DNA of 32,375 nucleotides. Origin: Treponema sp. (lineage in GTDB: Bacteria > Spirochaetota > Spirochaetia > Treponematales > Breznakiellaceae). The stretch is from the NCBI GenBank assembly GCA_031256445.1, contig JAIRQN010000003.1:1-32375 (forward strand), read 5' to 3'. The notes below the pieces were generated by a model, which searched no databases, was not told where the DNA came from, and worked only from the letters and a program-made list of their open reading frames with translations. Positions 4,483 through 32,375 of the stretch are shown piece by piece; positions within the stretch are counted from its first letter, which is position 1, and every line of letters starts with the position of its first letter. The position numbers and the translations under genes are program-made.

Positions 4483-5187
4483 CTACCCTCTGGCAGGAAC
4501 CCGTTCCCGCCGTTTGCGGACAAGAACGCCTGCGTCTTCCTTCTGTTCTTTACCGTACTTCATGCCGTTATAAACCCAAACCTTAACGCCGATTGATCCG
4601 AAAGGGGTATGCGCTTCGGCAAAACCATAATCAATATCCGCCCTTAGAGTATGAAGAGGTATGCGCCCTTCTTTTGTTTCTTCGGTGCGGGACATTTCCG
4701 CGCCGCCAAGCCGGCCGGAAAGACGGACCTTTACGCCCTGGGCGTTGCCCTTTTTAATCGCGTTGGAAATAGCCTGCTTCATTGTACGCCTGAATGATGA
4801 ACGCGCCAAAAGCTGGCGGGAAATATTCTGCGCTATAATCTGCGCGTTATTGTCCGCGTTTCTTACTTCTTTAATTTTTATCTGCACTTTCTTGCTGACT
4901 TTTTTCTGCAGATCGCTGCCGATTTTTTCAATGTTCGCGCCTTTGACGCCTATAATTACGCCGGGCCGGGCCGTATGAATTGTAATTGTTATGCGCTGCG
5001 GATGACGTATAATTTCCAGTTCCGCGATATCAGCGCCTTTAGTCTCCGGCATATCCATAATAAGCTTGCGCAACTGAAGATCTTCGTGAAGGGCATCGAC
5101 ATACTCTTTGGGATCAACATACCAGCGGGAACCCCATGTCTTGTTAATACCGATCCTAAGCCCCGTAGGGTTAACTTTTTGTCCCAT
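4483..5187 (-). CDS. rpsC: Ribosomal protein S3
   Basis: Small-subunit protein S3 at the mRNA entry channel. [18 protein letters not shown] is the standard N-terminus; the KH-domain loop [11 protein letters not shown] is near residue 80 and the C-terminal signature [15 protein letters not shown] near 160. Length 234 is typical. The ATG overlaps the rplV stop by one base (TAATG). Confidence 0.97.
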
Positions 5188-31994: not shown

Positions 31995-32249
31995 TCACTC
32001 TATAACAAGGGTTGCGCTTACGATGCCGAGATCATCTACAGAACTGCCGCCGTAATAAGCGATGGTAAAATTTAAAGAAGGTTGAGCGGTAAAGCTGCTG
32101 TAATCATCCGCTGCGGACATGTTGATCGTAAGAGTTTTAGTTTCACCGTCCCATGCTGCTTTATTTGAATCTAAAACATTTCCGCTGTTACCAAGAATAT
32201 CCGCCTGTTGCCACCAAATTTGATTGACAAGCGAAGTGAGAGTCGTGCC
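31995..32249 (-). pseudogene. ORF remnant lacking a start (C-terminal fragment)
   Basis: The minus strand from 32249 to the TGA at 31995 is open for 84 codons, reading for example QIWWQQADILGNSGN, NKAAWDGETKTLTINMS and a last part AYYGGSSVDDLGIVSATLVIE-like ending in IE. Codon use and composition look like real protein (perhaps a secreted or surface protein). No ATG, GTG or TTG precedes the conserved-looking part; a TAG in frame (32250-32252) lies in the first hairpin of the palindromic element. So it looks like the C-terminal end of a gene cut by that element. Confidence 0.6.
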
Positions 32250-32269
32250 CTAGTTTACTCGGGCACGAC
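32242..32269. repeat. Nine-pair perfect hairpin at the edge of the palindromic element
   Basis: GTCGTGCCC and GGGCACGAC are perfect complements around a ten-base loop. It joins the ORF remnant to the multi-branch element, and its loop side carries the in-frame stop of the remnant. Confidence 0.7.
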
Positions 32270-32295
32270 CGAACGAGCGCAGTCACCGAAGGGGT

Positions 32296-32374
32296 TCATA
32301 CCCCGCGGCTTGCCGCGGAAAGCCAGACCACTTGTAAGTGGTCTGGCGGGTGCAGGGCTTGCCCTGCGGTATGA
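32296..32374. repeat. Multi-branch (cloverleaf-like) palindromic element
   Basis: TCATACC (32296-32302) pairs with GGTATGA (32368-32374). Enclosed are three hairpins: CCGCGGC-TT-GCCGCGG (32303-32318), a 12-pair stem GCCAGACCACTT-GT-AAGTGGTCTGGC (32322-32347) and GCAGGGC-TT-GCCCTGC (32352-32367). Almost every base is paired. As plus-strand RNA, two arms end in CUUG tetraloops closed by G-C. It is not a tRNA: arm lengths are wrong and no tRNA consensus bases are seen. It may continue past the window. Confidence 0.75.
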
Positions 32375-32375
32375 T

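Follow-up and report, generated by a model that had tools for sequence, protein, structure and literature searches.

Transposition by the IS200/IS605 superfamily is marked by the lack of a terminal inverted repeat, the lack of target duplication and a fixed 5′ oligonucleotide (PMC7290912, PMC2806898). Derivatives without a transposase gene form a class that is already known, from the PATEs (PMC3119063) and from one bacterial case that consists of ends only (PMC7290912). We analysed a 32,375-nt stretch of Treponema sp. DNA (the whole of which we call the window), which is contig C6 of a 2.79-Mb, 107-contig assembly. At its edge we found a palindromic element that is very probably a non-autonomous member of the IS200/IS605 superfamily, i.e. 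a PATE, with the end hairpins and right terminus of an insertion sequence (IS), a hairpin (arm 2) replacing the transposase gene, and an added 5′ domain.

The element is 160 nt long, and 151 of these lie inside the window, at positions 32225–32375 of the plus strand. Its boundaries were set by conservation across copies, by empty sites, and by the complete internal copy on contig C73, which shows the missing end; this end, ACCATTCAT or a near variant of it, is also visible in internal and right-half copies on C30, C97, C106, C107 and C52. The preliminary description had placed the structure at 32242–32375; the structure itself stands, but not its extent, since the repeated unit starts at 32225 and its last nine bases (ACCATTCAT) run past the contig end. 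The left end reads TGACAAGCG and the right end CCATTCAT, the final bases being ATTCAT. Conservation across copies ends abruptly on both sides, the limits being TGAC (left) and CTT[CT]AT (right). The two ends show no inverted match to each other, i.e. no terminal inverted repeats. The pentanucleotide TTGAT (32220–32224, plus strand) forms the 5′ flank, outside the element. The sequence immediately before the element is.TNAT in 73 of 82 unique copies, TTTAT being the commonest variant (30 copies), followed by TTGAT (13), which is the usual target in the window's own genome. Left and right often differ in the base that precedes AT, and their resemblance is therefore not a duplication. On C52, a right and a left end meet in tandem, ATTCAT being joined to TGACAAG.

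The 5′ domain (32225–32285, plus strand) is closed by TGAC (32225–32228) pairing with GTCA (32282–32285). It includes hairpin 1 (span 32242–32269, plus strand), a 9-bp stem of GTCGTGCCC (32242–32250) and GGGCACGAC (32261–32269) that is longer in most other copies, via CGAG/CTCG. The cloverleaf follows on the same strand (32296–32374), with a 7-bp outer stem (TCATACC, 32296–32302, with GGTATGA, 32368–32374) around three arms. Arm 1 (32303–32318, plus strand; CCGCGG-CTTG-CCGCGG) equals the left-end hairpin of related IS200-type elements, and arm 3 (32352–32367, plus strand; GCAGGGC-TT-GCCCTGC) their right-end hairpin. Arm 2 (32322–32347, plus strand) is a variable stuffer hairpin where the transposase gene would sit. 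All the hairpins named previously were located at 32242–32375, together with the CTTG loops reported for two arms (arms 1 and 3) and the alternative 5-bp pairing of GGGGT (32291–32295) with ACCCC (32300–32304). The 176-nt stretch folds at −85.9 kcal/mol, compared with −60.8±4.6 for shuffled sequences (z −5.5; none of 200 shuffles was as low).

We found that pairing is conserved. Among 17 diverse full copies, 98.1% of cells pair and nine pairs are changed on both sides. The covariation score of these copies was 0.164, versus 0.102 after shuffling, and none of 500 shuffles reached the pairing, two-sided or covariation measures; the count of further pair types in the same 17 copies was not in excess over the shuffles. 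Since relatedness inflates covariation scores, the stronger evidence comes from a control in which the partners were slid, which destroys the pairing signal, and from independent middle arms. Indeed, the sequence of arm 2 differs among species with its pairing kept (CCAGACC/GGTCTGG, CCTAACC/GGTTAGG, GCCGCC/GGCGGC and GGCGAC/GTCGCC). Compensatory changes were also seen in the stems of the 5′ domain, and the hairpin 1 helix has two-sided changes at 6 of 13 pairs in the copy alignment.

About 14 copies or remnants of the element were found in its own genome by DNA search, most of the copies at 93–100% identity. Copies lie at contig ends (the window's, C5, C52, C107 and C85) or near them (C49 and C86). 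Short-read assembly typically breaks at repeats, and, because several contigs, the window's included, end in a copy, the window edge is an assembly break in a repeat. The DNA query matched 16 of 60 related genomes, with no match outside the genus in this sample. The left-end pattern TGACRARCGRAGYGAG was present in 12 of 40 genomes of the genus, with 33 copies in genome G009, and the reversed pattern, used as a control, gave almost nothing. Family-wide, the pattern occurred in 20 of 200 genomes and 7 of 57 genera. Among the places read, full elements outside the genus were seen in G219, G069, G294 and G297; a pattern match in G221 looked like coding sequence. The named records carrying the element are MAGs called Treponema sp., and from isolate codes we take the element-bearing genomes to come from termite guts. 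We infer from this distribution that the element is mobile. The preliminary description had proposed a palindrome, mobile or extragenic, whose fold as a single strand is maintained, and had named a lone copy with pairing lost in relatives as what would refute this. The search of the own genome and of relatives that it suggested gave the opposite of the refuting outcome, and the many copies, clean insertion sites and compensatory changes support the proposal.

Pattern matches in unrelated phyla were about as many as estimated by chance and mostly lacked the body of the element. The exception (L144, from position 5138 onwards) lies in an Oscillospiraceae MAG, Lab288P3bin192, and has a similar layout, TTAT followed by TGACGAGCGAAGTGAG, hairpins and CCTCTTTAT, then T; the bin is named as a Firmicute, and this may reflect horizontal transfer or a mis-binned contig. 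A scan of viral contigs gave one TnpA relative (L243) and no lead to an element-bearing phage.

Four empty sites were found in relatives (L104/L127, at CGTAT followed by CAAAACTCC; L130/L178; L147/L046; and L040/L163), where the joined flanks match uninterrupted relatives with zero bases duplicated or lost at the junction. Target duplication was likewise absent from the window's own site, as read from the join of C107 to C6. At the khpA site, genome G000 reads CTTGAT followed by TGAC, and relatives mostly have GAY and then a stop; the target sequence is native, as relatives read CTTGAY. The suspicion that the window's copy had cut a gene proved justified, since in relatives this domain closes long frames and the C107–C6 join restores the codons. 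The C-terminal fragment of this gene (31995–32219, minus strand; WWQQADILG...) matches the C-terminus of 468–768-aa frames in relatives and would encode the C-terminal beta domain of a cellulase-like protein, a name that comes from our own reading of the sequence rather than from a family search. C107 ends in the right half of the element and carries the preceding part of the gene; the join gives GPANQIWWQQ, where a relative has GPANAIWWEQ. Upstream, C107 contains a frameshift as well, which is either genuine or an assembly error.

The origin of the cloverleaf is indicated by related insertion sequences. On contig C189 of G010, a broken IS200-type transposase gene lies beside a copy of the element, with TTTTAT followed by TAGGCGAAGCCGATACGGTTTAATACCCCGCAGCTCTGCTGCGG upstream of the gene. 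Homologues of this transposase were found in 11 of 149 genomes of the order, and the one homologue tested was a strong match to Y1_Tnp (PF01797, E 1e-38). We read and compared the ends of these IS by eye. About 15 of the 18 readable left ends are preceded by TTTAT or ATTAT, and the left hairpin comes after sequence like TTTAATACC; the layout, TTTAT and then ...GGTTTAATACC-CCGCGGCTTGCCGCGG, carries arm 1 of the cloverleaf. The left end of L218 has the 27-mer GGTTTAATACCCCGCGGCTTGCCGCGG of relatives' copies, i.e. arm 1 with its 5′ flank. In most of the IS, TT[CTG]AT closes the sequence no more than about ten bases after a right hairpin. Arm 3 and the terminus are both found in this right end, GCAGGGCTTGCCCTGCGG...TTCAT, and the 18-mer GCAGGGCTTGCCCTGCGG (arm 3) is present in the right ends of L218 and L252. 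ATACC, a candidate guide sequence, makes up the bases 5′ of the hairpin at both IS ends. GATACC precedes the right hairpin in the IS, and in most element copies it is on the other side of arm 3. The IS have a short TAGGC-GAA-GCCTA stem where the element has its 5′ domain, which was found in none of the related IS. In G297, copy L277 forms a bridge: its right end, GCAGGGCTTGCCCTGAGGATGTTCAT, is of the IS type, and its 5′ domain and arms are those of the element. G219 holds both the element and transposase genes of the G010 type, two of them with stop-free frames over most or all of the match; in most element-bearing genomes a close relative of the G010 transposase was not found.

Since arms 1 and 3 and the terminus are common to the element and the Y1 (PF01797) IS, we conclude that the element is a non-autonomous IS200/IS605 derivative. 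By this comparison of ends, the cloverleaf is the left and right ends of a Y1 IS joined, with a stuffer hairpin between them; the extra 5′ hairpin domain and the variable middle arm are the element's own features. It is not an autonomous IS200/IS605 member, as 160 nt is too short to encode a transposase and PF01797 gave no match in its own assembly, nor a classical MITE, as it is without terminal inverted repeats and target duplication. It agrees with PATEs in its ends, absence of duplication, 5′ oligonucleotide, near-terminal palindromes related to the IS605 type, and short length. By analogy with IS200/IS605 transposition, a Y1 TnpA acting in trans would bind the hairpins on single-stranded DNA and cut 3′ of TTNAT at the left end and 3′ of TTCAT at the right end; the strand would then be excised as a circle and inserted 3′ of another TTNAT. 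The element is presumably moved in trans by such a Y1 TnpA, and, judging from the transposon family, its working form would be single-stranded DNA rather than RNA. Its own assembly offers no candidate enzyme, so the element could be orphaned there; alternatively, assembly gaps may have swallowed the gene. An IS200 of G009 (L178), 32% identical to the G010 TnpA, was considered and rejected, since its ends differ; the bodiless left ends L117, L152 and L114, considered as autonomous versions, looked like remnants. About eleven weak PF01797 matches with similar frames near 162 aa in a single genome, G028 (L181–L184), represent a diverged, multiplied Y1-like gene. A second repeat family (L085–L089, L033–L036 and L045–L048; G028, G029, G030 and G023) has a TTNAT-like flank followed by TCGAAAGTCTGGTTTAATACCCCGCGGCTTGCCGCGG, and shares the arm 1 module with the element but differs in its ends; it is probably another derivative of the same IS group.

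Short copies without the cloverleaf were found in several species (C97 and C106 in the own genome, L069, L070, L076, L079 and L153). They would fit a composite history, in which a short mobile element, made up of the 5′ domain and a terminal hairpin, GAAGGGTATNATACCCTTC, came first and later received the cloverleaf, as an IS end pair, within that hairpin; replacement of arms by other palindromes is seen in C49 and C86. We regard this history as unlikely. Deletion between short repeats on either side (ATACC or GGT) also accounts for the short forms, and deletion derivatives are frequent, that on C30 having arisen between GGCTTGCC repeats and those on C97 and C106 apparently between ATACC repeats. 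Furthermore, the TTNAT target and TTCAT terminus, which are those of the IS, are common to short and long forms, and the mover would be the same either way. A very short form in the own genome (L090:904–940, on C53) consists of ends only, TGAT followed by TGACTGCGGCTTGCCCTGCGGTATGATACCATTCAT, with both termini and one hairpin. In L019 and L021 (own genome, C49 and C86) and L014 (C52) the right part is swapped for an unrelated palindrome, GGGGCTGTCCGAGAAGTTGGTTACTTCACGGACAGCC or similar; these copies are nested or recombined palindromes.

It is highly improbable that the element is a palindrome of the REP/BIME type that owes its spread to a domesticated transposase, a RAYT (TnpA-REP). RAYT-like Y1 genes do occur in the genus, and single-strand movement has been proposed for REPs too (PMC8266576). 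However, the RAYT genes of G009 and G007, considered as partners, have different palindromes on their flanks, and no ends of the element lie around them; the element has no GTAG-type motif, its own genome has no Y1 match, and its ends match IS200-type elements instead. Of the suggested tie to IS200-like or REP-associated transposases, only the former is supported, the ends matching those of PF01797 IS in sister genera. The RAYT-type genes L177 and L176 (G009, C87 and C27) are flanked by palindromes of their own, GTGACTGTCACC and GTGCCTGACACC, that is, REP systems separate from the element. We give equally little credence to a structured RNA or intrinsic terminator that persists because it acts at gene ends, with mobility incidental, for, although the fold is very stable, changes are compensatory and many copies lie directly at gene 3′ ends, the covariance models of Rfam 15 gave no match in the window at gathering threshold, copies also interrupt genes (the window's included), their neighbours vary, close relatives have empty sites, and pairing is equally expected of a transposase recognition site.

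We counted 25 copies that follow an open frame of 70 codons or more, and in 17 of them the in-frame stop is the first TGA of the element. Since TGAT targets exclude one frame, between one third and one half of such copies would be expected to show this. The surplus is suggestive, and could be due simply to harmless insertions having survived. Tentatively, the TGA tip and the TTGAT or TTTAT target might form a host-sparing device, in which insertion between the last GAT or TAT codon and the stop restores TGA in place, though we consider this doubtful; if it were true, gene ends would be safe harbours for the element. With the element, a class of repeats at which assemblies of termite-gut spirochaete genomes fragment has an explanation. 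The family also offers, in bacteria, a set of IS200/IS605 derivatives that lack a transposase, exist in tens of similar copies and come with mapped ends and empty sites, and sister species still carry transposase-bearing relatives. Trans-mobilisation can therefore be put to the test, as can the tolerance of single-strand transposition to additional hairpins.

The family, its cloverleaf layout and the 5′ domain appear to be undescribed in the literature searched, of which coverage was partial. REP/BIME sequences with TnpA-REP (PMC8266576) are alike in being many small palindromes, possibly non-autonomous, with a presumed HUH-type enzyme; REPs, however, carry a GTAG-type tetranucleotide and lie beside their own tnpA-REP, whereas the element follows TTNAT and ends in TTCAT. 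ISDra2 and other IS200/IS605 members (PMC2806898) likewise insert 3′ of a pentanucleotide, carry subterminal hairpins at either end and cause no duplication. The ISDra2 target, TTGAT (PMC2806898), is that of most copies in the window's genome, which may be coincidence; the element lacks tnpA and tnpB, and its homology is to the Y1 IS of sister genera (L218 and others) rather than to ISDra2. The PATE-like sequence of Halanaerobium hydrogeniformans (PMC7290912) likewise has IS605-type ends without a transposase in a bacterium, but is a single 271-nt sequence with a tnpB remnant, whereas the family seen here is compact, with copies in the tens per genome. The PATEs of Haloquadratum walsbyi (PMC3119063) have no terminal inverted repeats or target duplication, a short 5′ targeting oligonucleotide and near-terminal palindromes related to the IS605 type, are too short for a transposase, and show repeat-mediated core deletions and other palindromes nested inside, all as found here. 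In contrast to them, the element is bacterial (from a spirochaete), targets TTNAT, has an extra 5′ hairpin domain, and carries its left and right hairpins adjacent as arms of one cloverleaf, with the stuffer arm between.
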